A stretch of 64,000 nucleotides of DNA, taken from Zingiber officinale (taxonomy: Eukaryota > Streptophyta > Magnoliopsida > Zingiberales > Zingiberaceae). The notes beneath the pieces were generated by a model. It ran no database searches and was not told where the DNA came from. It saw nothing but the letters and a program-made list of their open reading frames with translations. The position numbers and the translations under genes are program-made. Location: NCBI RefSeq assembly GCF_018446385.1, contig NC_055986.1, positions 78,887,659 through 78,951,658 on the forward strand, written 5' to 3'. Positions 6,183-50,601 of the stretch are shown here, piece by piece; positions within the stretch are counted from its first letter, which is position 1, and the number at the start of each line of letters is the position of its first letter.

Positions 6183-8764
6183 TCTTGATTACTTCTCGGA
6201 ATACCGTTCTAGTCCCCCTGTACAAAAATTTGTACAAGCATAGAACCATCCTAGCTACTCATGTGCTCTACTGAAGTTAAATTAGAATTGCAAACGATAC
6301 TTAACATTATTAATCCAAATTGTCCTTCAGAAGTTAAACTTGGATTGGAAATGATACTTAACATTTTTACTCCAAGTTTAACCGATGTGTTCTTCCTAAG
6401 TTAAACCATATTACAGAAGTTAATTAAATATCTATTTCAAAGATTGGTTTCCAGGTTAAACATGGCGAGGCACTAGGCCTTCTTGGGTATGAAATCATCT
6501 ACCACTTCCTAGGCAAAGCCTTTTAAAGAAATCAGATATTTAACTTCTTACAGTAAACTAGGTTTAACTACAGAGACCTCAATAGAAGCACAATATCGAA
6601 ATAAGAAATCGAAAAATAAAATCGATAACAAAATGATAACCTAAAACTGATAGCCTCTTGTGTTTGGTTTTTCAAGATCTATACAAAGAAGATGAACTAG
6701 TTATGATGCGGAAACAAATAACTAGTTATACATTTCTTAGTAGCTTATAGACCTCTTGATCTTCTACTGTATTCCTCTCCTCCTCTTGGACGTCGTGTGG
6801 GCGATGATCTACCAAGATGAAATCCACCCAAGCTTCTTCCTTTGCTTCCAAGTTTCGACCACCAACTAACCTCCAATGGATGCTAGATAAGAGAGCTTCC
6901 TTCTCTTCTTCTTCTCCTTCAAACAACCAGCCACCAAGAGAAAACCAAACTTGATGCCGCAGGGCTCCAAGAGAGAAAACAAAAGGTGAAAAGAGAAAGA
7001 AGAGGACCGGCCACCAAGGGAATAGAAGAGAGAAATTTCGGCCACAATAGAGAGGATGCAAGGCTTAGGTTGTTCTCAATGAGGCACCCTTTCCCTCTCT
7101 TTTATAATCCTTGTTGAATCCAAAAAAGGAAAGTTTTCAAACAAAAAATTAAAACTTCCTTTTATTCCTTTACATGGTCGGCCACCACTTGTGCATCAAA
7201 CAAGGAAAGATTTTAAACAAAAAATTAAAATCTCTCTTTTAAAATCCCTTTTGTGGTTAGCTATAAAAGACATGTTTTATAAAATTAAAATCTTCTCTTT
7301 TAAATCCTTTTTTAGATGTTTATAAAAGAAAAGATTTAAAATAAAACTCCTTTTATATTATGGTTACAAAAAAAAGGAAAGTTTAAAATTAAAATCATTC
7401 TTTTAAACATTATAGATAACTACAAATAAGGAAAGATTTCAAATCTCTCTTTTAATCCTTTGTAGAAAGTTATAAAAGAAAAGATTTTAAAATTTAAAAC
7501 TCTTTTAAAACCATGTGGAAAGCATCATAAAAGGAAAGTTTTTAACAAAATAAAAACTCCCTTTTATTTTCTTTTGAGACCGATCTAAAAAGGAAAGTTT
7601 TATAATTAAAATCATCCTTTTAAATCCTTTTAATGGATCTCTATAAAAGGAAAGATTTTACAAAAAAAATAAAACTTCCTTTTCTATGTGTGGATGGCCG
7701 ACCCCTTGCTTGGGCACCAAGCAAGGCTTGGCCGACCCTAGATTGGGCCTCAAGCTTGGTTTGGTCGGCCCCTTGCTTGGGCTCCAAGCAAGGATGTGGT
7801 CGGCCCTTAAGCTTGGTTAAGAAGTTGGGCTTTGGGTAGATATAAGACTTTATAAATAAGAGACTACAACAAGGGCTGAGAGGAGGAATTGGTTTTGGTC
7901 TCTCGATGAGCTTGAGCTTCCCATGTTAGCCCCGAACACCCAACTCAAGTTCATCAATAATAACTCATACCACTAAAAATTTATTATTGCACTACCGCAC
8001 CAATCTCATATTAAAATATGGGCTCCTTCTTATCATGAGTGCGCTAATCTCTCTGTGTTTAAGCTATCGAATGTCCATTAATTAAATGAGTTACTGATAA
8101 CTCACTTAATTAATATCTAGCTCCAAGAGTAGTATCACTTAACCTTATTGTCATGTCGGACTAAGTCCACCTGCAGAGTTTACATGACAATCCTTATGAG
8201 CTCCTCAAGGGGGCATCATCAACCTAAATTACTAGGACATAGTTTCATTCTATAATCAACAACACACCATATAAATAATATCATTTCCCAACTTATCGGG
8301 CCTTTTAATTTAACGAACTAAATCTCACCCTTTGATAAATTAAAAAAATAAATATTAAGTATACGTGCTTGTTATTATATCATGATTCAGAGTATGCACT
8401 TCCATAATAACAGAGGTCCTGCTCCTTTTTACAGTCAGTATAAAAAGAACAACCTCAAATGGTCCTGCTCAATACACTCAGAGTGTACTAGTATAATTTT
8501 ATAATCAAGATAAATTAATCTCAAATTACACTACAACTATTCCAATGGTTTATCCCATTCCATCTTGCTTGTGAGCAATTATTTATAATTTATAAGGAAC
8601 TGATAACATGATCTTCTGTGTGACACCATACACCATGTTATCTTCAGTATAAATTAAATGAATAACTACATTTAGCATATAAATGGAGACATTTGACCAA
8701 TATAATTCTTATTTCAAAAAAAATATTTATATAAAAATCTAGACTTTTAATATACATTCTAACA
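6183..8764 (+). mobile_element. Solo-LTR-like insertion J in element D
   Basis: A 2582-bp insert splits the D pol gene and is flanked by a perfect 5-bp duplication GTGAC (6178-6182, 8765-8769). The ends read TC...CA, consistent with TG...CA after one change. There is no gag or pol inside. A TATA box (ctttataaataag, about 7848-7860) lies on the plus strand, so the LTR reads rightward. Upstream are an AT-rich array of hairpin units (7090-7680) and a GC-rich hairpin cluster (7695-7825). A short frame on the minus strand at 6726-7061 has no supporting features. At 2.6 kb it is long for a copia LTR; the family is unresolved. Confidence 0.65.
7090..7825 (+). repeat. Hairpin array upstream of the TATA box of J
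   Basis: 7090-7680 holds about nine AT-rich units of the form AAAGGAAAG...CTTCCTTT, each an inverted repeat with varying inner arms (GTTTT with AAAAC in some, GATTTT with AAAATC in others). 7704-7726 and 7771-7793 are two perfect hairpins, CCTTGCTTGG and CCAAGCAAGG, with 3-nt loops. GGCCGACC and its complement GGTCGGCC recur around them. Confidence 0.75.
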
Positions 8765-9890: not shown

Positions 9891-10448
9891 ACAAATACTT
9901 TGCCTTGTGTGTGATTATAAAAGTAATATCCCTTTATTTTCTTGGGGTATCCTATAAAATAACACTTGTCTAATTTGGGTCCTAGTTTATTTGAGACTTG
10001 TTATCAAACATAAGCCTCACAATCCTAAATCTTCATGAAAGACATCTTGGGATTCTTCCCAATCTATATCGTATATGATGTCTTTATGACGACCTTAAAT
10101 GGAATGCGATTAAGTGTGAAAGTGGTCGTCTCTACACTATTCCATTGTGGTGTTCCAGGTGAAGTGAGTTTAGATATGATCTCACACTTAACGAGATGGT
10201 CATGAAACTCTTATCTAAGGTATTCCTCACCTCGATCTGACTGAAGCATCTTAATACGCTTACCAAGTTAGTTTTTGTATTTCATTCTTGAATTCTTTAA
10301 TCTTTTCAAAGGATTTCAACTTATGTCTCATCAGATACACATAACCATACCTACTGAAATCATCAGTAAAAGTAATGAAGTAATGATAGTCTCCTCTAGT
10401 TGCTATTCTGAAAGGGTCACATACATCACTATCTATGAGTCCTAACAA
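9891..10448 (-). pseudogene. Element D pol, integrase core fragment
   Basis: The minus-strand frame at 10260-10448 shows the integrase catalytic-core start (S-D-V-C-D-P-F and Y-F-I-T-F-T-D-D-F-S-R-Y-G-Y-V-Y-L). Weaker integrase-like sequence continues to about 9890. The fragment is cut at 10448 by element A; its upstream partner resumes at 19961. The flanks join exactly in the expected reading frame. Confidence 0.85.
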
Positions 10449-10834
10449 TGTAAGACCGTTAGATTCGATAGAGGGGGGGGTGAATATCGATTCGAAAATC
10501 TCGAGTTAAGACGCAGCGGAAAAGTAAAGAAGTAAAGAGATGAACACTGTTGATTTTTACTTCGTTCGGAGCCTGTGACGACTCCTACTCGAAGGCCCGT
10601 ACTCCTTGAGTACTTTCGTTGGGCAATTCACTAGCAATTCGGATAATTACAATTTACGTGCAAATATTGCTAATGAAAAGAAAGAAAACAAAGCTAACCG
10701 ACAAACAATGAATTAAAAAGAGAGTCGGAGTGAGTCGTCGGAGCTTTGTGAACGTTGTTGGAGCGCAGAGCAGCAGAGTGATTGGACTCAGAGTTCTCAG
10801 AAGACTGATATTTTGAAGCTCCTGCCTGGGGCTT

Positions 10835-10842
10835 CTTTTATA
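10835..10842 (-). promoter_or_regulatory. TATA box of element A LTR
   Basis: TATAAAAG on the minus strand, placed directly after the GGGCGCC module as read in the element. The same box occurs in the other LTR near 19205-19212. Confidence 0.65.
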
Positions 10843-10849
10843 TGCTGCT

Positions 10850-11031
10850 CCGGGCGCCTGGATCCCTTCCGGGCGCCTGGAATGTGACGTAACACTCCCA
10901 ACCAGCATGCTCCAAGTGTCAACGTCGTCCTGGGGATAGAACTTGCCTCCGGGCGCTCGGACTTCCGGGCGCCCGGAGCCATTCCGGGCGCTCGGACTTC
11001 CGGGCGCCCGGAGCCATTCCGGGCGCCCGGA
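10850..11031 (-). repeat. GGGCGCC palindrome module upstream of the A TATA box
   Basis: Repeats of CCGGGCGCCCGG (a perfect 12-bp palindrome) and close variants separated by 'ttcc', 'acttcc' or 'agccatt'. The matching module in the other LTR (about 19220-19383) has a different copy number and order, while flanking LTR sequence is almost unchanged. Confidence 0.85.
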
Positions 11032-11301
11032 CCCTCACTGTTCCCTACCTGCAAAACAGTGTTAGTCCGAGGCAAATAAACCCTGCAGCACAGTTTGTTA
11101 GCACATTTTTACAGATACGCTAAGTAATAAAAATTAGCATCAAGAGTATGACTTAGATTCCGTCTTTCCGAGACCGGAATCTAGTCACGATCTCGACTTA
11201 GATATCCGAAATGGATCTAAGCCGGATCGACGCCTAATGTTCCCTTCCCGGGAACGCGTCCTCGCAGTCACTCCCCTCCAGTGACTTACCTTACTTACCT
11301 G

Positions 11302-11498
11302 CCAGACGTCCGGTCAGCCCGTCGACCCGTCTGGACTTCTTGCCAGCTATCCGGTCAGCCCGTCGACCTAGCTGGACTTCTTGCCAAGCGTCCGGTCAGC
11401 CCGTCGACCCGCTTGGACTTCTCGCCAGCTATCCGGTCAGCCCGTCGACCTAGCTGGACTTCGTGCCAGACATCTGGTCAGCCCGTCGACCTGTCTGG
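11302..11498. repeat. Five-unit 41-bp hairpin array with covarying arms (element A, left LTR)
   Basis: Units begin at 11302, 11343, 11384, 11425 and 11466, exactly 41 bp apart. Each has a 7-bp outer stem, a 3-nt bulge, an inner stem GGTC/GACC and the loop AGCCCGTC. The outer arms are CCAGACG/CGTCTGG, CCAGCTA/TAGCTGG, CCAAGCG/CGCTTGG, CCAGCTA/TAGCTGG and CCAGACA/TGTCTGG: different between units, complementary within every unit. It lies in the U3 region, about 110-300 bp from the LTR start. Confidence 0.9.
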
Positions 11499-11606
11499 AC
11501 TTCTCCTGCACACTCGATCAAAGTGTCAGACAACAACACAACTAACTTAACCTATTTGTCATTCATCAAAACCTGGGTTAGACCGTTAGTGCTACCCGCA
11601 CCAACA

Positions 11607-13130
11607 ATCTCCCCCTTTTTGATGGAATGACAACCTGGTTAAGTTAGTGAAAGCATATGTACGAAACAACATGCATTTGTGTGGTTTTAAAGTTAGTTTG
11701 TGTTTTTAAATTGGTTTAGCTAACTTAACCACCTAACCCTTCTCCCCCTTTGGCATTCATCAAAAAAACAAGGGTAAACAATCATAGTGTAGAGTTACTT
11801 AAAACAATAACACTTAATCTTGAAAAATAACTGAGTTTGGTTCAGGATTCAAGAACAAAAGTATAATTTTTAAATCCAAGAAAAGATCAAGTTGACTGGG
11901 GGGAGTATAAAGATTTGAAAACTTTTAAGTTTAATTTTCAAACATAAGTGTATAAGGTCTAAATTTCAAGATTAAATTTTCAAAACAAGTTTCAACTTTG
12001 AAACGCTTTTCAAACATAAGTTTTCAAAACAAAAATTTCAAAACTAAGTTTGAAAAATCTATTTTTCAAAACTAATTGAAATTTATTTTTCAACACTAAG
12101 TTTGTAAAAGATTCAAATTTCAAAATCAAGGAAAATGTTTTTGAGAAGCTTAGTTTGTAAAATAATTTTTGTAAAATTTAACCTTCAAATCAAATTGTCA
12201 AAACTAAGTAAAATCAAATTTTAAGAACTAGATTCAGGAACATTTTCAAAGTAAAATTAAATTTAAATCTTTACTTTTTAGAATGTTTTGATAAAATTTG
12301 TTTTCCAAAATCAAATTTTCAAAGTTTAAAAGTATTAGATTCAAAATCTTTCAAATTTTTGTAAAAAATTTCACAATTTTAAGTAAGTTGATTTTGAAGA
12401 TTGATTTTTAAACTTTGATTTTCAAAATTAAGGAAAATGATTTTGAGAAGCTTAGTTTGTAAACTTAAGTTTTGAAAATTCTAATTTCAACAATTTTCAA
12501 AACTAAGTTAAATTTAATTTTCAAAATCAATTTTCAATAAAAAGTAAAACCCAATTCTTAACAACAACTTAGTTTTATAAGAGTTAGTTTTCAAAAGTAG
12601 GTTTAAGAAATTTTTAAGAAAACATTTTTCAAACAAAATTTAAAATATTTTATATAAAGGGAAATTTTTAATTAATTCCTCCCCCTGAACCTGATACTTA
12701 GCTTTTACCAGCTGTCTAACCAATTAGGTACTAACTAATTATCAGAAGATAGTAGCTTTCACTTGGTTAGTCAGATTAAGTTAATTATGATCAGTCAGTG
12801 TTTGACTTGACTGATGAACTTTAATCTGATTAATATCTGAATTGTATTTAACGTCCAGACTTATGCTGATGCACTGAAATAAGCATCTTAAGTCTAGACA
12901 GTTGGCCTATGCATCTCACCCCTTTCTATGTTTGTCAAACACAAGCAAGGTAACCCTAGGGTGTTGGTGAGATGCTCAAAGACTAGTCCTATGGGTACAT
13001 GCTTTCTAAGGATGTAAAACTAGTCTAAGGCCAAAATTGTTTTTGAAAGTCTAAAAATGGAAAGTTTGAAAACAAACAAGTTTAACCTATAATTTGATAA
13101 AACCATTTTTGAAAGTATTTTTGAAATTTC
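11607..13130 (-). other. 3' untranslated region of element A
   Basis: 1.5 kb of very AT-rich sequence made of 'tttcaaaactaag'-like motifs in both orientations, with no reading frame. Purine tracts such as the complement of 'ctccccctttggc' occur near the LTR. Sireviruses are known for repeated motifs and multiple polypurine tracts in this position. Confidence 0.7.
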
Positions 13131-16100
13131 CTAGTCTATTGAGCACATCCCTAATTGTCGTCGTAAGTTGCTAAATTCACTCTCAGGGAGTGGTTTTGTA
13201 AAAATGTCAGCTAAATTTGATTTAGACTCAATGTACTTGAGTTCAATATCACCTTTAGTAACATGATCCCTGATGAAGTGATGCCTAACTTCAATATGTT
13301 TGGTTCTTGAATGATGTACAGGATTCTTGGTTAAGTTAATCGAACTTATATTATCAATTAATACTTTTACATTTGTGATATTTAAATTGAAATCTTTTAG
13401 AGTATGCATCATCCATAATATTTGTGCAACATACTCGCCTATAGCTATGTATTCTGACTCAGTTGTAGATAGTGCAACACAGTGTTGCTTTCTACTAAAC
13501 CAGCTAACAAGGGATGGACCAAGTAGTTGGCATCCACCACTTGTGCTTTTGCGGTCTAATTTGCATCCGGCATAATCTGAGTCAGAATATCCTATTAATT
13601 CAAAGTTGTTGGTCCTAGGATACCAAATTCCTACATTTGTGGTTCCCTTGAGGTATCTAAAGATTCTTTTGACTTGAGTCAAATGAGATTCTTTAGCACA
13701 GGTTTGGTATCGAGCACACATACTAACTGCAAATAAAATGTCAGGTCGGCTTGCAATTAGGTAAAGTAGACTACCTATTGCGCTCCGATAATGTTTTAAG
13801 TCTACTGATTTTCCATTAGGATCATCATCTAGGATTGTGTTTACGGCCATAGGTGTTTTTATTTCTTTAGTATTTTCCATTCCAAATTTTCTAAGTAATT
13901 CCTTAGTATATTTCTGTTGATAAATATAATTTCCTTCATTTGTTTGTTTGACTTGTAACCCTAGAAAATAAGTTAATTTTCCTACTAGACTCATTTCGAA
14001 TTCGTGTTCCATTAGGTTTGTAAATTCGTTTAAAAACTCTGAGTTTGTTGAACCAAAGATGATATCATCTACATAAATTTGAGCTATAAAAATATCCTCT
14101 TTTATTGATTTCACAAATAGTGTTGGGTCAATTTGACCTTGGTTGAACGCTTTAGAGGTTAAGTAAGAGGTTAGTCTTTCATACCATGCCCTAGGTGCCT
14201 GTTTAAGTCCATATAATGCCTTTTTTAATTTGTAGACATAATCAGGGTGTTCTAGGCTTTCAAAACCTGGTGGCTGACCTACATAAACTTCTTCTTTTAT
14301 CAATCCATTAAGAAAGGCAGACTTGACATCCATTTGGTATAGTTTGAATCCTTTATGGGCTGCATAGCTTAGTAACATTCTAATGGACTCTAGTCTAGCT
14401 ACCGGGGCATAAGTTTCATCGTAGTCAAGTCCTTCAACTTGACTGAACCCTTTGGCAACTAACCTGGCCTTGTTCCTAGTAATTTCTCCAGTTTCACTTA
14501 ACTTGTTTCTAAATACCCATTTGGTTTCTATTATTTTCTTATCGTTAGGTGGAGGTACTAGGTCCCAAACTTCATTGCGCTCAAATTGAGCTAATTCTTC
14601 TTGCATAGCTATGACCCAGTCTGGGTCAAGTAGAGATTCAGCTACAGTTTTGGGTTCAATATTTGAGATTAACGAGATTTGACTTAGGTTTCTGAAAGAT
14701 GATCTAGTTTGGACCCTCAGATCTGGGTCACCAATTATTTGATTAGTAGGATGGTTTGGGTTGACTCTTATGGTTCTAGGAGGTTGACTTTCTTGTAGTT
14801 GTTCTTCCTCTTCATTATTTTGGGTTTGGTTTGTTCCCTCAGAATTGATATGTTCGTGAACAGAGTCAACTGGTTAAGGTTGGGCTTGTTCTAGGTTTTG
14901 ATTGGATTCTTTGAATTTTACATTGGTGGTTTCCTCAATTCTTAAAGTGACTTTATTATAAATTCTGTAGCCTCTGCTATTCAGAGAGTAACCTAGAAAA
15001 ATTCCATTTTCTATTTTGGAAGTGAATTTGCCTAAGTGTTCTCTAGTATTTAGGATAAAGGCTGGGCAACCAAATACCTTAAAGTATTTTATATTAGGTT
15101 GTTTGTTGTAAAATATTTCAAAAAATGTTTTATTGTGTTTTTTGTTTAGTGTTGTTCGGTTTTGTACATAGCAGGCTGTACTAACAGCTTCTGCCCAAAA
15201 ATATTTAGGTAAGTTGTATTCATTTAGCATAGTTCTAGATGCTTCAAGTAAGGTTCTATTTTTCCTTTCTACAATTCTATTTTGTTGGGGAGTTTTAGGG
15301 CAAGAAAATTCATGATGGTAGCCATTTTCAAGGCAAAATTTATCAAAATTATGATTTTTAAATTCTCCTCCATTATCACTTCTGATTCTTTTAATTTTTA
15401 TGCCTTTTTCATTTTCAATTTATTTGCAGAAATTTGTAAAAATTTCAAAGGTTTCATCTTTATTTTTTAAGAATTTGACCCAAGTGAACCTAGAATAGTC
15501 ATCTATTATAACTAAACAGTATAGACTTCCATTTATTGATTTCACCCCATGGGAGTCAAATAAATCTAAGTGTAAAAGTTCTAGGACTGAGTTGGTTTGG
15601 GATTCATTAATTGGTTTGTGGGTAGATTTTGTTTGTTAGCCTTGTTGACAAGCATTACATATTGTTGAATCTAAGTTAGGTAATTTTGGTAAGCCTCTAA
15701 CTAGACCATTTAATTTACTTATGTTTCTGAAATGTGTGTGTGACATTCTTTTGTGCCATAACCAGGTTTCTTCTTTTTGCGTTAAATAACACTTGACTGA
15801 AGAGGTGGTTAAGTTGATGGCATAGATATTGTCTTTTCTAAAGCCTTTTAGGCTTATAGTTGGATTATCTACATGTTTGATCAAACATTCTGAGGATAGA
15901 AATTTTACCTTATACCTAGTGTCACACAATTGACTTATGCTCAGAAGATTGTATTTAAAATTTTCAACAAGTAGAACATTTGAAATTATGAAATCTATTT
16001 TTAATTCAATATTACCTATACCAATTACCTTGAGTTTACCGTTGTTTCCAAAGGCAACTGTTCCTAGGCTTTTGTAGGTTAATTGAGTGAACTTGGTGTG

Positions 16101-16160
16101 ATCTCCAGTCATATGTTTGGAGCAACCACTGTCCAAAATCCACTTGGTTTCCTACAACAA
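13131..16160 (-). pseudogene. pol: Element A pol (protease, integrase, RT, RNase H) with three in-frame stops
   Basis: One minus-strand frame spans the whole region. In order: aspartic protease (D-S-G-C-S near 16130), GAG-pre-integrase with the zinc-binding H/C residues (C-N-A-C near 15650), integrase core (D-D-Y-S-R, S-D-N-G-G-E-F, E-R-K-N-R-T), linker, RT ([17 protein letters not shown]) and RNase H (S-D-Y-A-G; E-S-E-Y-I-A) to the C-terminus at 13131. TAA stops lie at about 15634-15636, 15418-15420 and 14874-14876, with no frameshift. A family-typical glycine before V-E-R-K is an arginine. The order PR-INT-RT-RH is copia, and sequence style, PBS and LTR features point to the Sirevirus (Maximus/SIRE) group. 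The downstream 491-codon RT/RNase H part is open. Confidence 0.93.
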
Positions 16161-16919
16161 GTAGGATTTTTATGTTAGTCTTAGTTTATCACTTTTTAAT
16201 CAATCAATTTTTTTTTTTTTTTGAAATTGAAATTTGAAATTAATTTAAGTTTTAAAATTAAAGTTTTGAAATTAAGTTTTAAAATTTTGAAATTAATTTA
16301 AAAGTTAAAATCTTGAAAATAATTTTTAAGTTTAAAATTAAAATTTTGAAAATAATTTTTAAGTTAAAATTTTGAAAATAATTTTTAAGCCTTTTTCATC
16401 TCACCCGATCTATATTATCAATCAGGGAATCCTATGGTTTTGTGAGATGAATTTGGTTTGATTACAGAGTTTTGGTTTAACTAGTGTTAGATTCAGATTT
16501 AGCTTTGGTTTCCACAAATAGGCATTCTTCGGATAAACTTCTAAACTTGGTGAGTCACAAGGACATCATTAGAAGTAACCAACCTTTCGAAGTTTTCCGA
16601 ATAGTCCTATCCACGGAACTTAGTACTAAATCTTGGTCTAACTGGTTAGGATTCGTTTAAGGGTAGCTTCGGTCAGTTCCACTTGGCCAAATGCACCAGA
16701 TCGAAGCCATATCTTTCTAGACATGCGATGCCCAAGCTTCCCTAACGTACTATCATCCAAAAACTTCACCAGTACCATGAGTCAAGTTAAACTTGGTCTC
16801 TCTTTAACTAATCCTAATTACCCAGCCGGGTTAGTTTGTTTTGGGTTACCCTGTCGGGTAGGTTAGTTTTGGAGGTGCCAGCTATTCTGGAGCCTCCCCC
16901 TGAATTATTGGCCATTAAT
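16161..16919 (-). other. Gag-pol spacer of element A
   Basis: Non-coding stretch between the gag stop and the protease frame, including a T-run at about 16207-16221 and AT-rich 'aattttgaaaataattttt' repeats (16240-16390). No gene seen. Confidence 0.6.
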
Positions 16920-18575
16920 TTAGATTTTGGGTTTGTGTCGATTCTTTTTATAGTTATAATCAACTTGGTGATAATCTAAATTTTGTTGAGTTTTGAATTT
17001 TGATTTTAATTTAGATTTATATTTTAGTTTTTGATCTGATTTATTCAAGTTTATATAATGTATTTTATCTTTAGGTATATAGAATTGATTAAGTCCTACT
17101 TGCGTGGTTAAGCACGCTTTCGGGACCCAAGCTTGTTTAGTTGCTTTGTGTTGGGTTAATAATGATTTAAAGGTTTTGTTTGAGTTTGACTTATATCCAA
17201 GTCCGGTTTTATTATAGCATGCCTTTTGGTTATTTAGAATTAAATCTAAATTTTTAGATCTTGTTGTGAATTTTTCCAACAATTCTTTTAACTTATTAAT
17301 TTCATTTTTTAATGATAAATTCTCCTCCTCAAGTGTTCGATCTTGAGTTGGGTTCGAATTTTTTAATTGTTCCTTGAGGTTTTGATTTTCCTCAAGAAGC
17401 GATTTATTTTTATTTTCCAATTTAACTAATTTTTTATTTAAACATGAGATAATTCTAAAGAATTTATGATTTAAGTTTAGGTATACCTCTTCGGAACCTT
17501 CGAGTGCGGACTCGTGGCTCGATTCGGGTTCGGACCCGTCTTCCGATTCCTCCGATTCGTCTTCCGTTTCAGCTCATGAGCCATCAGCGCGAGGTGACTT
17601 CCTTTCTCCCTCCGATTCCTCTGAGGAGGAATCATCCCATGTTGCTTTGAGGGCTTTCTTCTTTGTTGACTTTGGTTTGTCAAGTTTCAATCTTGGGCAT
17701 TCGTTCTTGTAGTGCCCCTTTTTGTTACATCCGAAACATGTGACATTTCTTGAGTCGGCTGGCGAACTGATCTTCTGAAGATCCTGTTTGCTGAAGCTTC
17801 TCTTTTTCCTGGTGAACATTTTCCTTACCAGGTTCACCAGGTGTTCTTCGTCTTCAGAGTCTTGATCGGAATCTTCTTTGGATTCGGGCTTGTTCTTCTT
17901 TTCTTTAGATGAACCTGCAAATAAAGCTACACCTTTCTCGACCCCGGCGTTAGTTTGCTCATGAAGTTCTAATTCACAAAAGAGTTCATCCAATTTTAAT
18001 TTAGATAAATTTTTTGAAATTTTGTAGGCATCTACGATTGATGCCCACAAATTGTTTCGCGGAAAAGCATTTAACGCGTACCTGATTAAGTCTCGGTTCT
18101 CCATTTGGTGGCCTATCGCGTGGAGACCGTTGAGGATATCTTTGACCCTCGCGTGGAGCTGACTTGCCGTTTCTCCTTCCTGCATTTTTATATTAAAAAT
18201 TTTATTTAACAGCAAATCTCTTTTTGTTACCTTCGCGTCGCTTGTTCCTTCGTGCAGCTCGATCAGTTTATCCCAAAGCTCCTTAGCGTTTTGATGCGGT
18301 CCGACCCGGTTCAGTTCTTCTCGTGTTAGTCCGCAGTGTAGAGTATTGATGGCTTTGTTTTCAATTGATGCCTTTTTCTTTATATCATTTGTCCAGTCTT
18401 CAGGGTCTACTATGTTCCCGGAGTTGTCTACTGAAATTTTGTAAGCCCTTGTGACGCTCATCCATTGGTCGTAGTCTGTCTTCATGTAGACCTCCATTCT
18501 CCTCTTCCAGTACGAAAAGTCATCCCCGTTGAATAGGGGAGGGCGTACTGTGCTGAAGCCTTCTTGTTGACACAT
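16920..18575 (-). pseudogene. gag: Element A gag with one in-frame stop
   Basis: The likely start is the ATG at 18573-18575, four codons after an in-frame GTG. The N-terminal half carries the copia gag (UBN2-type) pattern: F-N-G-D-D-F-S-Y-W-K-R-R-M, E-L-W-D-K-L-I-E-L-H-E-G-T and M-Q-E-G-E-T. A CCHC zinc knuckle (C-x2-C-x4-H-x4-C) lies near 17715-17750. An acidic serine-rich linker follows, then a coiled-coil-like C-terminal segment (16920-17420). A single TGA at 17574-17576 interrupts the frame; both sides are in the same frame, giving about 550 codons in total. Gag would form the particle that packages element RNA. The next frame, pol, is 0.76 kb downstream. Confidence 0.9.
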
Positions 18576-18804
18576 CTTATCCTGCACACACTAAATTAAC
18601 TGGAAAAAAAATCCCAAGACTTCGTCTTGGATTAGCAGTGCGGGAGAAATAAAAACTCTAAGTTAGTGTTGTACCAATTTAGATTTTAAATGCAACGAGA
18701 AAAAAAATCTTCCAAAAAGATAATAATATCAGTTTGGAATTATTAAAAAAAAATGATTTCACCCCCTGTCTGATTGGTGGTTGCACCAAATCAGAGCGGT
18801 ACCT

Positions 18805-18816
18805 GCTCTGATACCA
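18805..18816 (-). other. Primer binding site of element A
   Basis: TGGTATCAGAGC on the minus strand, two bases after the 5' LTR end, complementary to the initiator methionine tRNA as is standard for plant copia elements. Confidence 0.92.
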
Positions 18817-18818
18817 CT

Positions 18819-19960
18819 TGTAAGACCGTTAGATTCGATAGAGGGGGGGGTGAATATCGATTCGAAAATCTCGAGTTAAGACGCAGCGGAAAAGTAAAGA
18901 AGTAAAGAGATGAACACTATTGATTTTTACTTCGTTCGGAGCCTGTGACGACTCCTACTCGAAGGCCCGTACTCCTTGAGTACTTTCGTTGGGCAATTCA
19001 CTAGCAATTCGGATAATTACAATTTACGTGCAAATATTGCTAATGAAAAGAAAGAAAACAAAGCTAACCGACAAACAATGAATTAAAAAGAGAGCCGGAG
19101 TGAGTCGTCGGAGCTTTGTGAACGTTGTTGGAGCGCAGAGCAGCAGAGTGATTGGACTCAGAGTTCTCAGAAGACTGATATTTTGAAGCTCCTGCCTGGG
19201 GCTTCTTTTATATGCTGCTCCGGGCGCCTGGATCCCTTCCGGGCGCCTGGAATGTGACGTAACACTCCCAACCAGCATGCTCCAAGTGTCAACGTCGTCC
19301 TGGGGATAAAATTTGCCTCCGGGCGCCTGGATCCCTTCCAGGCGCCCGGACTTCCGGGCGCCCGGAGCCATTCCGGGCGCCCGGACCCTCACTGTTCCCT
19401 ACCTGCAAAACAGTGTTAGTCCGAGGCAAATAAACCCTGCAGCACGATTTGTTAGCACATTTTTACAGATACGCTAAGTAATAAAAATTAGCATCAAGAA
19501 TATGACTTAGATTCCGTCTTTCCGAGACCGGAATCTAGTCACGATCTCGACTTAGATATCCGAAATGGATCTAAGCCGGATCGACGCCTAATGTTCCCTT
19601 CCCGGGAACGCGTCCTCGCAGTCACTCCCCTCCAGTGACTTACCTTACTTACCTGCCAGACGTCCGGTCAGCCCGTCGACCCGTCTGGACTTCTTGCCAG
19701 CTATCCGGTCAGCCCGTCGACCTAGCTGGACTTCTTGCCAAGCATCCGGTCAGCCCGTTGACCCGCTTGGACTTCTCGCCAGCTATCCGGTCAGCCCGTC
19801 GACCTAGCTGGACTTCGTGCCAGACATCTGGTCAGCCCGTCGACCTGTCTGGACTTCTCCTGCACACTCGATCAAAGTGTCAGACAACAACACAACTAAC
19901 TTAACCTATTTATCATTCATCAAAACCTGGGTTAGACCGTTAGTGCTACCCGCACCAACA
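18819..19960 (-). mobile_element. 5' LTR of Sirevirus-type copia element A
   Basis: The partner of 10449-11606. By eye I count about a dozen substitutions plus the changed GC module. The five-unit hairpin array is repeated at 19656-19852; in unit 3 the left arm has become CCAAGCA, a CpG-type change that breaks one pair. The bases outside the element (10444-10448 AACAA, 19961-19965 GTCAT) are not a target duplication. Confidence 0.92.
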
Positions 19961-20210
19961 GTCATTAGCTCTTTCACTGTGTCCACTAAATGGAGTCTTT
20001 GTCATCTTACCTTGAATACAAGATTCTCATACTTCATATGATTCAAAATTAAATGAGTGAAAAGTCCATCCTTATAGTGTTGGGATATGCGACTCTCATT
20101 TATGCGACCTAAGCGACAATGCTACAGATATGTTTAGATCAAATCATTAGATTTGAATCATTCGGTATTTATATTATAGATTGTGTTGTCAAAGTCTAAA
20201 ACATAGAGTC
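19961..20210 (-). pseudogene. Element D pol fragment (GAG-pre-integrase and start of integrase)
   Basis: 250 bp between elements A and B. Minus-strand translation fits the copia region just before the integrase core, with the conserved stretch that includes a cysteine and histidine zinc motif and ends at '...E-R-A-N-D', after which A is inserted. Stops are present. It is bounded upstream by B (TSD-like GAGTC at 20206-20210). Confidence 0.7.
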
Positions 20211-22225: not shown

Positions 22226-22960
22226 GAGATATCTTGGCCCGAAACCAGTGGAGATACTCTTGTTCGTGACCATTGGAGATAGGTCGACCCCGAACGGGGG
22301 AGATAAGCTGCTCTGATATGCTCCGTGACCAATGAAGATCTCTTGACCCCGAACGGGGGAGATAAGCTGCTCTGATATGCTCCGTGACCAATGAAGATCT
22401 CTTGACCCCGAACGGGGGAGATATGAGATCCAATGAGCTGGTCTGAGACTAGTGAAGATGAAGACCGCTCGACCCTGAACGGGAGAGATATGAGATCTGA
22501 TGAGCTGGTCCGAGATCAATGAATATCACTCGACCCCGAATGGGGAAGATGAGGAAATATGATATGCTGGTCCAAGACCAATGAAGACCGCGCGACCTCG
22601 AATGGAGGAGACAAGAGATCCGATATGTTGGTTTGCGACCAGTGAAGACCGCTCGACCCCAAACGAGGGAGATAAATGTTATGATAAGCTGGTCTGTGAC
22701 CAGTGATGACCGCTCGACCCCAAACAGGGGAGATAAGTTATCCGATAAGCTAGTTCGAGCTCAGTGACGACCGCTCGACCCCGAATGGGGGAGATAAGAT
22801 ATCTGATAAGTTGGTACGAGACCAGTGACGACTGCTCAACCCCGAACGGGGGAGATAAGATATCCGATAAGCTGGTCTAAGACCAGTGATGATCGCTCAA
22901 CCCCGAATGGGGGAGATAAGATATCCGATAAGCTGGTCCGAGACCAGTGACGATCGCTCG
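22226..22960. repeat. Tandem array 1 in element B (about 60-bp units)
   Basis: About twelve degenerate units of 'gctcgaccccgaa(c/t)gggggagataag...tgataagctggtc(c/t)gagaccagtga'. Each contains the small dyad CCCCG-AA-CGGGG; one unit has CCTCG with a GGAGG partner instead. Confidence 0.85.
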
Positions 22961-23275
22961 ATGATTTGCTGAAGGCTCGGGTTTAAGGTCGCCGCTGGAC
23001 CGTCGGTGGAGACATGGGTTTAACGTCACTACTCGACGATTTGATGAAGACTCGGGTTTAAGGTCGCCACTGGACCGTCGGTGGAGACCTGGTTTTAACG
23101 TCGCTGCTCAACAATTTGATGAAAACTCGGGTTCAAGGTCGCCGCTCGACCGTCGGTGGAGACCTGAGTTTAATGTCGCCGCTCGACGGTTTGATGAAGA
23201 CTCGGGTTTAAGGTCGTCGCTCGACCGTCAGTGGAAACCTGGGTTTAACGTCGCCGCTCGACGATCTTCACATGT
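22961..23275. repeat. Tandem array 2 in element B (about 75-bp units)
   Basis: Four units of 'gctcgacgatttgatgaagactcgggtttaaggtcgccgct...gaccgtcggtggagacctgggtttaacgtcgcc', roughly 75 bp each, with scattered substitutions. Confidence 0.85.
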
Positions 23276-23329
23276 GTTTATAATCGCCGCTCAACTTCTA
23301 GAGCCTATGGATCTAATATAACTCAAATC

Positions 23330-24000
23330 GGTCGATCGGCGCGGGAGACTTTGACTTTGAGCCTGTGGCTCTAATATAATATAATCCTAGCCGATCGACA
23401 TGGGAGTCTTTGACATTGAGACCACGGCTCTAACATAATATAATCCCGATCAATCAGCACGGGAGTCTACGACATTGAGCCCACAACTCTAACATAATAT
23501 AATCCCGGTCGATCGGCACGGGAGTCTTCGACATTGAGCCCGTGGCTTTAATATAATATAATCTCGGTCGATCGGCACGGGAGTTTTTGGCATTGAGCCC
23601 GTGGCTCTAACATAATATAATCCTGACCGATCAGCACGGGAGTCTTCAACATTGAGCCCGCGACTCTAACATAATATAATCCCGGCCAATCGACACGGGA
23701 GTCTTCCACATTGACCCCGTGGCTCTAACATAATATAATCTCGGCCGATCAGCATGAGAGTCTTCGACATTGAGCCTGTGGCTTTAATATAATATAATCC
23801 CGCCGATCGGCATGGGAGCCTTCCACATTGAGCCCGTGACTCTAACATAATATAATCCTGGTCGATCGACATGAGAGTCTTCGACATTAAGCCCGTGGCT
23901 CTAACATAATATAATCCCCGTCGATCGGCACGAGAATCTTCGACATTGAGCCCGCGACTCTAACATAATATAATTCCGGTCAATCGGCACGGGAGTCTTC
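23330..24000. repeat. Tandem array 3 in element B (about 59-bp units)
   Basis: About eleven units with the pattern 'gatcggcacgggagtcttcgacattgagcccgtggctctaacataatataatcccg'. Most keep the small hairpin GAGCC-CGT-GGCTC or a decayed form. Sequence identity between neighbours is high enough to align by eye throughout. Confidence 0.9.
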
Positions 24001-41022: not shown

Positions 41023-43393
41023 TGTAACGCCCGAAAATTCTCAAATTATTTTAGAAATATTCTATGATTTTTCTAGAATTATTAGATATTTTTATGGAAT
41101 TTTTCGAGTAGCGGAAGTAGCAAAAATTATTAGAAAAGTAAAATGCCTTAAGCGGGAATCAAACCCGGGACCTCTCGGGTCCGTTAAACCTTTAGTTAGC
41201 CTTAGTAACCGGTGAACCCAGCAGGGCCGTGCTGAAAGAGAAGGGAAACATTTATATTTATTGTTGAGTTGGGCCTAGTTACCCACTTAATATAAATTAA
41301 AAACTTAAGTTGGTTTGGGTTATTTTATGTTGGTTCGGCAACTTTCCTCTCCTCACCCTAACTCACGCCGACCCCCTCTCCTACTTCCTTCTCTCGGCGC
41401 CAACACCCAAGCAAGCCTAGGGTTTCATCCCTAGGGCCAAAGGAGTGCCTTCCGGTGACATCTCGGACACCAGGACGTTCCCCTCCGCGAGTAGAGCACG
41501 TGGACGTGAGCGAATCGTCGAGAAGTCGTCTCCACCGGAATTTCTAGCGATTAGATTTGTAAAAAATCTAGCACACAAGGTAAGAAACCCCTCACCTGCA
41601 GTATAAGTAGCTCCGTTTGGTTTTATACGCACTAGTTTAGCCATATGTTGTTTTTATCGACGCATAGGGTGAATTTGACCCTCCTCGCAGATTTAGGGAT
41701 TTAGCGAGTACTTCTAGATGGGCCGGACACGTATTCCCTCTTCAGGGGGGGTTCCTAGATGTTGTCGGGTGCCTAGAAGTGGTCTCCCTAATAGAGGGGA
41801 GAGTTGGGGCACACTGGGTGTTCGATAAAATAGCTAGTTAAGTTAAAATGCAAATTAGGCATTTTAATAGCTCAGTTAAATGTATTAGAAGCATTTAAAT
41901 CAATAAATCAGTTTATTTTAGCTTATATGGGACTACGGTCCAATGGGTGGGCTCCCACAGTCGCCTCTAGGTTCAGATAACCTAGATTCAGCAAAATAGT
42001 ATTAGCTATTTCAGTATTTTACTTTTCAGTGGCACTGTAATGGATTAGATATCCATTGGGTTGGGCTCCCATAGTCGTCCCTAGGTTTAGCTAACCTAGT
42101 AAACCCTACTAGATTCGGAACTTGCAATCCCGGGTCTAGTTAGGGATGCGCGCACAGCAAGTACAGTTGCCAGGGCCCATCAGCAGCATGTTTAGTATTT
42201 TCACTTACTATATGTATATGGTTTTCAACCTTTCACAAATTAGTTCGTGAATTCAGTACAGTCCTAGCAGTAGCTCAGTTTTTAGTATCAGCTTAGTTCT
42301 TCATTGATACCATGTGATTGATATCATGTTCAGCTTTAGATATGCCATGATTGTATGCTTATATGCCATGTCATGTTTAGTTTATTCAGTATACTTAGCA
42401 TATCCTTTCAAACAGCATGATTTAAAATCATATTTGCATCGTATGCATGTTTTAGTGAGGTAGATGGTTTCTTACTAAGCTTTTTAGCTTACAGATACTA
42501 TTTTCCTTATACTGCATATGCAGGTAAAAGGAAAATGGACTAGCAGTGGAGGTTGGAGGTCAATGCAGATCGAGATGGTGTGTGTGGCAGGAACATGGAA
42601 TAAAAGATCCTTAGGGATCTAGCAAGCTTAAACAATTGAACTTTTAGTATTTCTATTTTCACGCACCTTTAATTGTTAAATGCTACGAACTAGTAAACCA
42701 TGCTTTATATCCAGTTTAGAATGCTAGCTTTATGTCATTAGAATATATTCTATGAATTGTGTAAGTGAAATGTGAGATTTTGGCACGAACAAGTGCTGAA
42801 ATCAGAGCTTAACTGCAAAATCAGAAACCCCAATCGATCGGTGGATCGATTGGGGGGTCCCAATCGATCAGCTGATCGATCGGGCAAATTGCTCCGCGAA
42901 CAGTAGGTTTCTGGATCGAACAGCCGATCGATCCAGCAATTTCTGTCGTGAACAGAAGGTTCGGGGATCGATCACTGGATCGATTGGTCAGTCGGGATCG
43001 ATCAGCCGATCGATCCAGAATATCGTCCCGAGCACAGTAGCATGCTGGATCGATCACTGGATCGATCCAACCTATGTCCAGCATAAAGTAGCCGGCTGAA
43101 TCGATCCCTGGATCGATCCGACGTTCCAATAGATCAATGGATCGATTGGGAGGTCTGATAACAGCTGGAAAACATTTATTTCAGTTCCTTGACCATTGGG
43201 GATGTAGTATATGCTAGGTATACTTTAGATTACACCCTTTAGCATGTATAGAATCAAGAAATGTTAGCAGCTTAGAAAATTTTAAATTAGTACAGCTTCC
43301 GCACCTAGATTTTATGGTGGTTAGGGAGTAGTTAGCACAGCTTAATGTGATGATCGGCCTTACAGCCTAGTTAGTAGAAGGCGGGTCATTACA
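41023..43393 (+). mobile_element. Solo LTR H (chromovirus-like gypsy)
   Basis: A 2371-bp segment from TGTAACGCCCGA to GGGTCATTACA with a perfect 5-bp duplication AGTAC (41018-41022, 43394-43398). The TGTAACGCCC opening, the CT-rich leader (41330-41430) and the 'ttactaagctttttagcttacag' block (42473-42495) are usual in plant Tekay/Del LTRs. There is no internal domain, so it is a solo LTR left by LTR-LTR recombination. It carries an ATCGAT hairpin cluster at 42828-43149. Confidence 0.82.
42828..43149. repeat. ATCGAT hairpin cluster in H
   Basis: About eight hairpins share the core ATCGAT with different outer arms. The best are CCCCAATCGAT with its 11-bp partner (42828-42855, 6-nt loop), CTGGATCGA with TCGATCCAG (42911-42936), GGATCGATC with GATCGATCC (42995-43016 and 43047-43068, 4-nt loops), and a CCAAT...ATTGG form at 43126-43149. 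Confidence 0.85.
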
Positions 43394-46572: not shown

Positions 46573-48104
46573 TTGGTGCAGTGCGTCTATCAGAGGTACT
46601 TCAATGCAGATTTCTTTAATCTTCTTGAGGAATCGATGGAACTCTTCATCCTTTTGGGATGTAAATAGTTTCTGGGGAAAGGAATTGTCTAACTTTGTGG
46701 GGGAAGTGGAAGAGTCCTTTTGACCTTCTTGGTGATCTCCTCCCTATCCTTGTTCTAGACTAAATTAGGCATAAGAGGAGAGGGCTTTTCTTCTGATTCA
46801 ATTCCTTTTTGAGCAGTCATTTGGGAGTCTCCCAAAGTATGTCCGCTCCTCAACTCAATGCGGTTGCAATGTTCTGCCAAGTTTATGTCGGGATTTCTCG
46901 GAAATGCTCCCGATGCTCTTGAAAAGGACTGGGCTATCTTGGCGATTTGGTTGTCCTGCATCTTTTGATGCTTTTCAAAATTCTCCAATCTTTGATTCAA
47001 TTACTTAATTTCATTCTTCATCTCTTTTTGCTCCAAGAGAGCTTCTTCAAGCATCTTTTCGATTCTGGACAGTTGTGAAGGTTGTTGTTGTTGATAAATC
47101 TGTTGTCCAGGTGGGTAGCTTTGTTGCCCAAGTTGGTAACTTTGTTTTGCTGGTCCTTGATCCTGATTGCCCTGGTAAGAAAAATTTGGGTGGTTCCTCC
47201 ACTCAGGGTTGTATGTGTTGGAGTAGGGATTGTTTTGATTTTGGTTATAACTGACTATCACATCTCATTGCTCAAGTTGGTTTATTTGTGCTTGTATTGG
47301 TCCTAGGGGCAAGTATCTTGAGCATGATCCGAACTTCCGTAAATTTTGCAAACACACACTATTGCAGTGGTTGTGTTGTTCCCCATGGTCTCAAGCTTCT
47401 TGGTCAGAGCATCCAGCTTTGCAGACATGAGCGTGACTGCATCTACGTCAAATTTTCCTGATGCCTTTATTGGATTCCCAGAGAAAGAACCTCTAGATCA
47501 TTCGACTGCCCACTGATGGTGGTTCTATGCCACATTTTCTATGATCTCTTCAGCTTCATCAAGGCTCTTGTTCATTAACACCCCTCCTGCTGCAGAATCG
47601 AGGGACACCTTTGTGTGATAGTTGATTCCATTGTAGAATGTGTGCAGCACCAACCATTTCTCGAGGCCATGATGGGGGCACTGTCTCAGCATACTCTTGA
47701 ATCTGTTCTATGCTTCGAATAGCGATTCTGAGTCTATCTATTTGAAGATTACAATTAAATTTCTCATGTGTGCAGTTTTACTCGACGGGTAAAATTTGTC
47801 CAAAAATTTCTACTCACACTGATTCCAAGATGTTATGCTATTTGCCGGTATAGAATTAAGTCACTGCTTGGCTCTGTCTTTCAGGGGAAATCCAAAAAGG
47901 AGTAAGCTTACTATTTCTGGAGGGACCCCATTTACTTCATAATACTGTAGATCTCATAGAGAAGCTCCAAGTGATGATTTGGATCGTCGTGCGGTCCTCC
48001 TCCAAATTGATTTTGCTAGACTATGTGGATTACTACAGGCTTGATTTCAAAATTGTTGGATTCAATCGGTGGTCGAGTGATGCTAGACAAAAGCCCTTGT
48101 GCAT
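46573..48104 (-). pseudogene. gag: Element F gag, main part
   Basis: The minus strand gives A-Q-G-L-L-S-S-I-T-R-P-P-I at the upper end, then the gypsy gag core with several stops, a zinc-knuckle remnant near 47325-47350 (C-x2-C-K-I-Y, one cysteine changed), a Gln/Tyr-rich stretch (47001-47261) and a linker to protease. The first 12 codons lie at 52269-52306, beyond the G insertion. Gag forms the particle; this copy is not functional. Confidence 0.78.
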
Positions 48105-48222
48105 TGTTGGAACCCCAAGGTTGTTTTGGTGTGATCAACAAGTTAAGTTAGGTCCTGCGTTGTTTCTAACCTTGTGTCTAAGTGTGCAGGAGCTTAGGAA
48201 CACAGGTAGTCGAGCGGAAGAC

Positions 48223-48456
48223 GCAGCTAGCGAGAAGGACGGCAGTCCGAGGGACGAGGTGCTGCGGAAGAGTACACCGGCGGACGAGAAGGAAGCGCGC
48301 GGTGGTTCCGAGGGACGAAAGCCGGAGCGGAAGATTGCTCGGGGAGCAAGAGACGCAGTTAGCGAGAAGGTCGACGACCGAGGGACGAAGACTGCGGATG
48401 AGTACGCTGGCGGACGAGAAGGAAACACGCGGCAATTCCGAGGGACGAGAAGCCGG
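48223..48456 (+). repeat. Nested hairpin units with covarying stems in LTR G
   Basis: Two tandem ~131-bp dimers. Unit 1: outer GCAGC/GCTGC (48223, 48261), inner GGAC/GTCC. Unit 3: outer GCAGT/ACTGC (48355, 48391), inner GGTC/GACC. Unit 2: CCGGC/GCCGG with GGAA/TTCC; unit 4: CTGGC/GCCGG with one U-G wobble and GGAA/TTCC. An extra stem, TTGCTC/GAGCAA, lies at 48335-48349. 'gagggacga' follows each inner stem. The array is repeated at 51392-51625. Confidence 0.82.
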
Positions 48457-48750
48457 AGGGAAGCCCGCTTGAGAAGACCGGAAGTTGGGTTCGGGTGAGC
48501 CCTTTTCCGGATGGCAGAGATCACCCAAGTAAGCGGATCCGGAGCGGAAGACCCGGACCGAGGCGGGACTAAAACGGAGCAGAGGTCCCGGACGTAAAAG
48601 TCAACCAGAGTTGACTTTTTGCTCCGGGGCGCCTGGAACTGTCCGGGGTGCCCGTAGCAGCCCAGGGCTCCAGGAACAGTCCGGGGCGCCTGGAACAGTC
48701 CGGGGCGCCTGGAACAGTCCGGGGCGCCCGGAACCCTTCCAGGCGCCCCG

Positions 48751-48776
48751 ACCAAGACTATAAATATAGCCTTGGT
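48751..48776 (+). promoter_or_regulatory. TATA box of G inside a dyad
   Basis: The 26-nt segment from ACCAAGACTATA to the end CTTGGT pairs with itself at 11 of 12 positions, leaving the TATAAATA box in the stem-loop centre. Confidence 0.75.
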
Positions 48777-49092
48777 CCAGAAGCTGTCAATGAACTGAGA
48801 ACTCAAGCATTCTTTCTACACTTGTACGCTTTTATGTTTTAAGCTTCTATTGTGCGCTTCATTGCTGTAAAAGGCTTCTCCGCCTGAAGGAGATACTAGT
48901 GCTACGCTTTCTTGGATTAACAACCTTCCCGGTTGTAACCAAGTAAATCTCGGTGTGCCTTTTACTTTTCTGCTTTTATTTATTTCTCTTATTTTACAAG
49001 TGTTAGTTTAAGAGTTCGAGAAGGGTGTTTGCGTTTTGATTTTTGCAGGGCTATTCAACCCCCCCCCTTCTAGCCGGCCCAACGGTCCTACA

Positions 49093-49106
49093 AGTGGTAT
49101 CAGAGC
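49093..49106 (+). other. Primer binding site of element G
   Basis: AGTGGTATCAGAGC directly after the LTR, the copia initiator-methionine tRNA site. Confidence 0.92.
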
Positions 49107-49149
49107 CAAGACGCTTTAGGAGGACTAACCGCCAATCGAAGCAAAGATA

Positions 49150-50601
49150 ATGGCCGGACCAAGCATCCACCCGCAGAAATATGGAGGAGATTTCGCTACG
49201 TGGAAGAATCTGATGCAGGTATTTTTTACCACAGACTTTGAATTAACTTTAACAATGGAATCCGGTTTTGTAGCTCCAGAAGGTAAGGAAAAATGTCAAT
49301 GGACAAAAAAGGAGCAGGCTGAATACGTGGCGAACGGCAAAGCAGAATACCATCTGCTAAGCGTTCTTCCACCTTAAGAAGTCAACAGAATCGGACAATA
49401 CGACTCTGCAAAGGAACTTTGGGAAAAGTTCCTCGAGCTGCACGAAGGGACTTCCGAAGACAAGCTCGCCAGAAGAGATCTGCTTCGGAATCAGCTCACC
49501 AGCCTGCAACTTGGGGAAGATGAGACAGTCACGCACTTGCACTCGAGAATCAAAGAGATCATCACCGGACTTTCGAATCTCGGAGAAACGGTAAGTAACC
49601 GCGATTCGCTAAGGTACGCACTAAATTCATTTCCTAGAAATTCAAAATGGGTATCACTAGTAGATGCCTTTTATATTTCTAAAGATTTAGAAAATATCTC
49701 GTTAGAAGAATTTTTTTCTACTTTTGAAGTGCATGAGTCAAGATGTGCAGGAATGAAGGAGCCCAAGAATAATGTCGCCGTCAAAGCTTCGAGAGACGAA
49801 CCAGAGTCGGAATCCTCTCTCGATGACGAGGAAATGGTAATGATGGTAAGAAGATTCAAGAAGCTTTGTAAATCCAGATCTACTAACCATCCACAGGGGA
49901 AGAAGAAAAGGACGATCCGCTGCTACCACTGCGACGAAGAAGGGCACGTCAAGGACAATTGCCCCAAGCTGAAGAACAAGAACATGGAAAAGGGTAAGAA
50001 GCCTATCCAAAAGCGGAAAGCCCTAAAGGCGACGTGGGATGATACGTCGTCGGAGTCGGAAGTCGAGGCATTCTCCGGACTTGCTCTAATGGCAAGTCAT
50101 CAAGACGACGACTGTGAGTCAAGCTCTTCCGAAATGAGCATCGAGAGCATCGATGAAGGGGGAGCTTCGTCAGAGGAAAGCAGTAGTTCAGGGGGAGACA
50201 CGGAAAACGAACTCGACAAGGTAAGTCAGGTATGTTCACTTCCTCCCGATAAACTTTATAAATTTGTTAAGTTATTAACTAAAGACTGCTGTAAATTAGA
50301 AAAAGAAATAAAAAATTTAAAAATAATCTTAGCTAAATCCTGCCCTCTAGAAGAATTAGATAAATCAAAATTGGAAAATGAAAAATTGAAACTTGAAAAT
50401 AATGATTTGAAAATTCAAGTAGATAATTTGAAAAACCATGCATGTTCATCTAATTCTAGAAAATTTAAAAATTTAAATTGGTATTATAGATATCACCCGG
50501 GACAAATTAAGAATATCTCTAGAAAATATGTCCTTAAGAAATTTTTAATCAATCCAGTAGGCTGGAACCTTTATTGGGTTCCTAAATCTTGCTTAGTCTA
50601 A
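49150..50601 (+). pseudogene. gag: Element G gag, one in-frame stop; no pol follows
   Basis: ATG at 49150. The frame continues to 50601 with a single TAA at 49375-49377, about 483 codons in all. It shows copia gag features: K-Y-G-G-D-F-A-T-W-K near the start; E-L-W-E-K-F-L-E-L-H-E-G-T; L-R-Y-A-L-N-S-F-P-R-N; and a CCHC knuckle C-Y-H-C-D-E-E-G-H-V-K-D-N-C (49921-49962). An acidic serine-rich segment and a leucine-rich coiled coil at the C-terminus follow. It is close in design to the gag of A. The element ends 0.67 kb later with no protease, integrase or RT, so it matches the class described as TR-GAG (terminal-repeat elements with only gag). Confidence 0.92.

Follow-up and report, generated by a model that had tools for sequence, protein, structure and literature searches.

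Repeats inside the LTRs of plant copia elements have been described both in Sireviruses and in tobacco Tnt1, which lies outside Sirevirus. The closest relatives of the array described here are the palindromic repeats (RM boxes) of Sirevirus LTRs reported by Bousios et al. 2010, the available text of which (PMC2829016) presents them as CpG-rich palindromes with a CGG–CCG core, clustered between the PPT/LTR junction and the TATA box, starting 200–400 bp after the junction and upstream of TATA, and numbering at least eight per element. The classic copia elements in that study lack them, and their symmetric flanks differ across elements yet stay symmetric (Table 3 of PMC2829016). In maize, the available parts of two papers describe an LTR cis-region of Sireviruses that is palindromic, highly variable in sequence and predicted to fold strongly, and to which small RNAs map in excess (PMC5311732, PMC10760457). 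Tnt1 carries tandem repeats in U3 with suggested roles in transcription, and a hairpin series with exchanged arms is not reported in the available text on that element (PMC3601003).

The window, that is, the whole 64,000-nucleotide stretch of Zingiber officinale DNA analysed here, contains a Ty1/copia element with a pair of LTRs (element A, 10,449–19,960), whose sense strand is the minus strand. Its 3′ LTR (10,449–11,606) and 5′ LTR (18,819–19,960) are 97.4% identical, and the interior holds minus-strand matches to gag (Retrotran_gag_2, 17,574–18,587, E 2.9e-16) and to a pol fragment with copia-type reverse transcriptase (RVT_2, 13,131–14,606, E 1.8e-74). Judged from its sequence landmarks, element A is a Sirevirus, because it agrees with hallmarks published in the available text of PMC2829016 in its PPT–attachment site, the junction at its PBS, its additional PPTs, the inverted repeat flanking the PPT and its TATA box. 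The terminal PPT and attachment site, AGGGGGAG-AT/TG (AGGGGGAGATTG, 11,605–11,616), are an exact match to the published Sirevirus twelvemer, with the TG of the 3′ LTR starting directly after AGGGGGAG-AT. The PBS, TATCAGAGC at 18,805–18,813, lies directly inside the 5′ LTR; the junction directly past the LTR end, AGTGGTATCAGAGC (18,805–18,818), corresponds to the published form CA-A(T/G)TGG-TATCAGAGC. Identical PPTs occur at 11,609, 11,742 and 12,679, the latter two as upstream copies in the linker (11,742–11,749 and 12,679–12,686), the published average being four. An inverted repeat of 24 nt (88% complementary) surrounds the PPT/LTR junction, with its right arm inside the LTR at 11,541–11,564 and its left arm at 11,625–11,648; the right arm begins about 42 nt inside the LTR, against a published average of 28 nt. 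A run of eight C stops 24 nt before the LTR end and is a candidate for the polyC-rich integrase signal at the 3′ end of Sirevirus LTRs, which has a published average distance of 21. The TATA box, TATAAAA (10,836–10,842, minus strand), is situated about 765 nt inside the 3′ LTR. The 5-bp flanks of element A do not match as a target duplication (AACAA at 10,444–10,448 and GTCAT at 19,961–19,965), as would be seen after inter-element recombination. A second Sirevirus lies on the plus strand at 48,103–52,268, with LTRs 94.9% identical, a PBS at 49,098, PPTs at 50,157, 50,190, 51,111, 51,137 and 51,264, and a palindromic array of its own (TCCGGGGCGCCTGGAACAG, 48,623–48,747); its interior is only about 2.2 kb and it is probably non-autonomous.

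The array of interest occupies 11,302–11,498 of the 3′ LTR and consists of five hairpin units spaced at exactly 41 bp, each of which follows, on the plus strand, the formula CCA-NNNN-TC[CT]-GGTC-AGCCCGTC-GACC-NNNN-TGG. All five have GGTC/GACC as inner stem and AGCCCGTC as loop, while the outer arms read, in unit order, CCAGACG (11,302–11,334), CCAGCTA (11,343–11,375), CCAAGCG (11,384–11,416), CCAGCTA (11,425–11,457) and CCAGACA (11,466–11,498). Each outer arm has its exact reverse complement 19 bases on, giving five perfect 7-bp pairs from four arm sequences. The matching array of the 5′ LTR (19,654–19,859) differs in unit 3, where the innermost outer pair is broken and the loop carries one change. 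The sequence-only reading had described this same arrangement, with a common loop and inner stem, four fully complementary arm types and a single broken pair in the other LTR, and all of it was confirmed at 11,300–11,505 and in the 5′ LTR. Arm variation in the array is confined to four positions; because CCA/TGG never varies and units 2 and 4 share one arm sequence, the five units are not five independent cases. An 82-bp period outscores the 41-bp period in the array (349 vs 278). An Rfam search of the whole window gave no match at the array. Elsewhere in the window, 47,664–47,735 matched the plant snoRNA R71 with a score of 42.1 against the Rfam gathering score of 40.

The array is best placed as an extended variant of a known repeat type, because palindromic Sirevirus LTR repeats have already been published. 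Like the RM boxes as presented in the available text of PMC2829016, it lies between the PPT/LTR junction and the TATA box, and four of its five units contain CGGTCAGCCCG, a CGG–CCG core within a larger palindrome, TGG replacing CGG in unit 5; the Osr8 motif of that paper, CGGTCAGACCG, nearly equals CGGTCAGCCCG. The CpG observed/expected ratio of the array is 1.00. Unlike the RM boxes described there, the ginger core lies in 41-bp tandem units, each of which surrounds it with a long outer palindrome, and a single array holds four types of arm; the array has five units rather than at least eight copies, and it spans about 102–307 nt of the LTR, starting near 100 nt and not at 200–400. Five TCCGGGCGC[CT]CGGA boxes of TCCGGGCGCCCGGA type form a further palindromic array (10,948–11,032), with the hairpin array on one side and the TATA box on the other, about 575–660 nt inside the LTR (CpG observed/expected 1.14; fold z = −6.65 for 10,940–11,040 on the minus strand), and this array is closer to the published RM kind than are the 41-bp units. 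If these five boxes and two further palindromes at about 10,849–10,882 were added to the count, the palindromes of this LTR would exceed eight, but the added ones have a different motif. The array shares with the maize Sirevirus cis-region its palindromic character, strong predicted secondary structure and high sequence variability, but the maize region has another motif (CACCGGAC..GTCCGGTG) and another host (available parts of PMC5311732 and PMC10760457). With Tnt1 it shares the presence of U3 tandem repeats in a copia element. Palindrome-containing tandem arrays also occur in other repeats of the window, at 7,695–7,808 and 42,863–43,066 (CCTTGCTTGG..CCAAGCAAGG and GATCGATC types), and long arrays of 59–61-bp and 75-bp repeats lie at 22,265–24,000.

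The family to which this LTR belongs is very large. Copies were counted by pattern search in the 3.09-Gb assembly of 211 contigs, so that the counts would span two haplotypes; a DNA similarity search, which skips very common words, had given no match. The 16-base core is present in 48,737 exact copies (24,364 + 24,373), its reversed control in none across the assembly, and a 16-base LTR flank in 13,081. From the 100 flank matches listed, 90 loci were taken, all from the first part of one contig (C1), with ten omitted, eight of which were second LTRs of pairs. Of these loci 79 yielded distinct arrays, which together with six core-search loci and the two LTRs of the window gave 87 LTRs with 417 units, 413 after a mismatch filter. 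Pairing is the rule in these units and far from universal: 236 of 413 are paired at all seven positions, and the 4-base arm words match in 294, as GCTA (118), AGCG (70), GACG (47), GACA (43), GATA (7), AACG (3), ACTA (2), AATG (2), AACA (1) and GATG (1). The situation that would have undercut the sequence-only reading, unpaired arms being as common as paired ones, is thus not what the sample contains, although over seven positions the margin is narrow. Thirteen units in 11 LTRs are hybrids, which would arise by exchange within the shared loop. Group means of change are 0.025–0.057 for paired columns outside the row assignment and 0.063–0.085 for unpaired columns; single-column rates overlap between the classes, with some paired columns reaching 0.10.

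Comparison of subfamilies suggests that two arm classes, GCTA and GACA/GACG, are old, being common to old and young subfamilies. Old subfamilies alternate GACA (or GATA) with GCTA, the middle group reads GACG GCTA AACG GCTA GACA, and the young group reads GACG GCTA AGCG GCTA GACA, plus duplications. The series at unit 3 is therefore GAYA, GACG, AACG, AGCG, and unit 3 appears to have followed the path GACA → GACG → AACG → AGCG, with every step a transition matched on both arms; GATA, AACG, AATG and AGCG all look like matched transitions within the GAC class. In all seven LTRs of the middle group, the two arms of unit 3 have both changed to give A:T at the first position of the word; all four positions match in one copy, and each of the other six has one mismatch. 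Fully paired AACG was found in three LTRs, AATG in one and GATA in seven. The replacement of GACA by GACG could alternatively reflect whole-unit copying from unit 1. The sequence-only reading had named, as an outcome that would count against it, that the arm variants are whole-unit duplicates of only two original hairpins. This proved half right: there are two old classes and units 2 and 4 are of one type, but AACG, AGCG, AATG and GATA depart from each of the old words at positions that are paired between the arms, and so need changes in both arms. Among 20 additional loci outside the 87-LTR set, two of which (L137 and L140) yielded no units, six carry the mismatch GACA|GACT or a near form, and this recurrence indicates that the mismatch is probably inherited.

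Covariation was measured against a null in which substitutions were scattered randomly on a tree of the LTRs from which the array had been left out (2,000 simulations). A first tree seemingly misplaced some LTRs; columns were trimmed and 10 of 82 rows with terminal branches above 0.30 were removed, so that each unit set was tested on 47 to 66 LTRs, and two of the removed rows (L012 and L080) are among the three LTRs with fully paired AACG. For unit 3 the summed partner-column G was 122.6, compared with 17.0 under the null, a value reached in 0 of 2,000 simulations, and three of seven pairs covaried (pairs 4, 5 and 7, at p 0.003, 0.001 and 0.0175). Mean G was about 17.5 in partner and 6.4 in non-partner columns of unit 3; the non-partner columns likewise exceeded the null (p 0.002), an excess to be expected from replacement of whole units. 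Elsewhere covariation was borderline (unit 1, p 0.060; last unit, p 0.085), and in the GCTA units this test detected none (p 0.99). With all rows kept, unit 3 gave 0 of 1,000, unit 1 p 0.019, the last unit p 0.058 and the GCTA units p 0.762. Paired cells were more frequent than under the null in each of the four unit sets (p 0, 0, 0.001 and 0.0035), their share reaching 0.893 vs 0.462 in unit 3. The covariation comes from a single unit lineage and a few events. The proposal that the fold is selected, made from the letters of the window, has some support, with two sets borderline and the GCTA units null.

Broken arms were followed across the assembly. At one pair of the GCTA unit, with the core exact, there are 12,220 copies of GCTA|GCTA, 491 of ACTA|GCTA, 311 of GCTA|ACTA and 18 of ACTA|ACTA, the last near chance (12.8 expected, Poisson P 0.10) and set against 802 one-sided forms; the hybrid AGCG|GCTA has 154 copies. 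An array with a same-strand partner 4–12 kb away was scored as part of an apparent LTR pair. Among the matches listed, 30 of 70 arrays with an intact GCTA unit were in such pairs, as were 16 of 99 with ACTA|GCTA (8 pairs), 8 of 100 with GCTA|ACTA (4 pairs) and 8 of 98 with the hybrid (4 pairs), so that hybrid hairpins with several mismatched positions sometimes stand within apparent LTR pairs. Two one-sided GACG variants gave 2 of 66 (1 pair) and 6 of 43 (3 pairs), again among the matches listed, and the ACTA|ACTA double gave 0 of 18. These counts imply that broken arms are at times inherited, less often than intact ones. Many broken arms must be post-insertion decay, and the data agree with the decay after insertion that had been proposed from the two LTRs of the window.

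The reading we prefer, at a probability of about 0.6, is that whole hairpins were duplicated, that symmetry is under weak selection in the transposing lineage, and that inserted copies decay. This very abundant Sirevirus would then have a control region rich in palindromes in its U3, of which the array is a part, each 41-bp unit joining a conserved CGG..CCG core to an outer palindromic arm pair. Units would be gained and lost as whole hairpins through misaligned exchange; occasionally an arm base would mutate and its partner change later, with a single-mismatch intermediate between them that can presumably be tolerated because the row is redundant. Transmitted units would stay mostly paired because dyad symmetry is weakly selected while the lineage transposes, and copies once inserted would decay neutrally. 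The analysis shows the family, the arrangement of the array, the pairing statistics, the covariation of one unit lineage and the occurrence of broken forms in apparent LTR pairs. We infer both selection as the cause of the symmetry and misaligned exchange as the source of copy-number change, and the function of the array may be transcriptional control (through binding of a dimeric factor or through DNA shape), a fold in LTR transcripts, or both. A stronger version, that the palindromes are conserved as structures and not as sequences, with arms drifting by the compensated steps GACA, GACG, AACG, AGCG, is tentative, and we would sooner bet against it than for it.

Whole-hairpin copying could also operate with no selection on pairing, if the old hairpins, one GCTA and one GAC-type, each multiplied as entire units and the paired changes were a few subfamily accidents that became clonally amplified. 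We consider this unlikely. It would fit two classes common to old and young subfamilies, the same arms in units 2 and 4 together with the 82-bp period, GCTA units without covariation, a double change near chance and the presence of broken arms in apparent LTR pairs, but the derived paired words need changes in both arms, whether as frequent as AGCG (70 units) or as restricted as GATA (7 LTRs), AACG and AATG. That the last two are fully paired in just three LTRs and one LTR speaks for this neutral account; the excess of paired cells over the tree null in all four sets and the covariation of unit 3 (0 of 2,000) speak against it.

Folding bears on whether the hairpins might instead be selected as RNA. 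U3 lies within the 3′ part of genomic RNA under the general LTR plan, and hairpins there could act as sense-RNA structures in packaging, export or strand transfer. Every single unit folds alone as a hairpin on either strand (−15.7 to −16.8 kcal/mol), in keeping with such a role. When folding was compared with shuffled controls, as the sequence-only reading had suggested, z was below −2 for 59 of 70 arrays on the antisense (plus) strand but for only 32 of 70 on the sense strand, with medians of −3.02 and −1.90; the array of the window gave −4.08 on the plus strand and −1.26 on the sense strand. The lowest-energy plus-strand fold is one nested rod, in which units 2 and 4 pair around the hairpin of unit 3 and unit 1 pairs partly with unit 5, and it is possible because the arm words are symmetric in order (GAC-, GCTA, AGCG, GCTA, GAC-). 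Sense G-U exceeded sense A-C at two exact-core pairs (491 vs 311 and 66 vs 43), in favour of sense RNA, but for the second pair the apparent LTR pairs ran in the opposite direction (1 vs 3), and in a 383-unit sample all seven pairs gave 67 G-U vs 85 A-C. A consistent G-U signal was thus absent over the two exact-core pairs and the 383-unit sample, and we read the count difference as a mutation difference between sites or arms. With the weaker sense folding, this makes selection on sense RNA a poor candidate. Wobble tolerance in sense RNA was rejected on the 67 vs 85 count and the reversed apparent LTR pairs. At two homologous sites, G-to-A changes are about 1.5 times commoner in the plus-strand 5′ arm than at the mirrored 3′ arm site (491/311, 66/43); mean arm change rates in the sample are about equal, at 0.044 and 0.046.

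Least probable of all is palindrome correction, in which a reverse transcriptase or DNA polymerase switches template within a hairpin, so that one arm is rewritten from its partner with no selection: it would account for matched arms of any sequence, and quasipalindrome template-switch mutation is described for E. coli in the available text of PMC7202029, but apparent LTR pairs retain arms that are one-sided or hybrid and have not been corrected (8, 4 and 4 pairs among the matches listed, 1 in 66 and 3 in 43), which disfavours frequent correction, and doubles number 18 vs 802 one-sided forms, stay near chance and include zero apparent LTR pairs, so that the correction during reverse transcription offered in the sequence-only reading is not borne out.

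A literature search, in which the 2016 maize Sirevirus study (Bousios et al., doi 10.1101/gr.193763.115) was covered through passages of PMC5311732 and PMC10760457, turned up no account of compensated arms in Sirevirus LTRs and no paper that treats Sirevirus and Zingiber together. Nor did the literature so covered describe several arm types that succeed one another within a single array by stepwise, compensated changes. Such a series bears on the question of why plant retrotransposons keep palindromes although these draw small-RNA silencing; the available text of PMC10760457 pictures function and silencing as pulling against each other. As the family offers 13,081 flank copies and has natural paired, one-sided and hybrid arms, whether symmetry or sequence is what matters can be tested statistically, with no need for designed mutants. 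If the palindromes are indeed conserved as structures and not as sequences, the hairpin itself, as a DNA cruciform or a transcript fold, would be what the element needs, and thousands of insertions would record the fate of each arm mutant.
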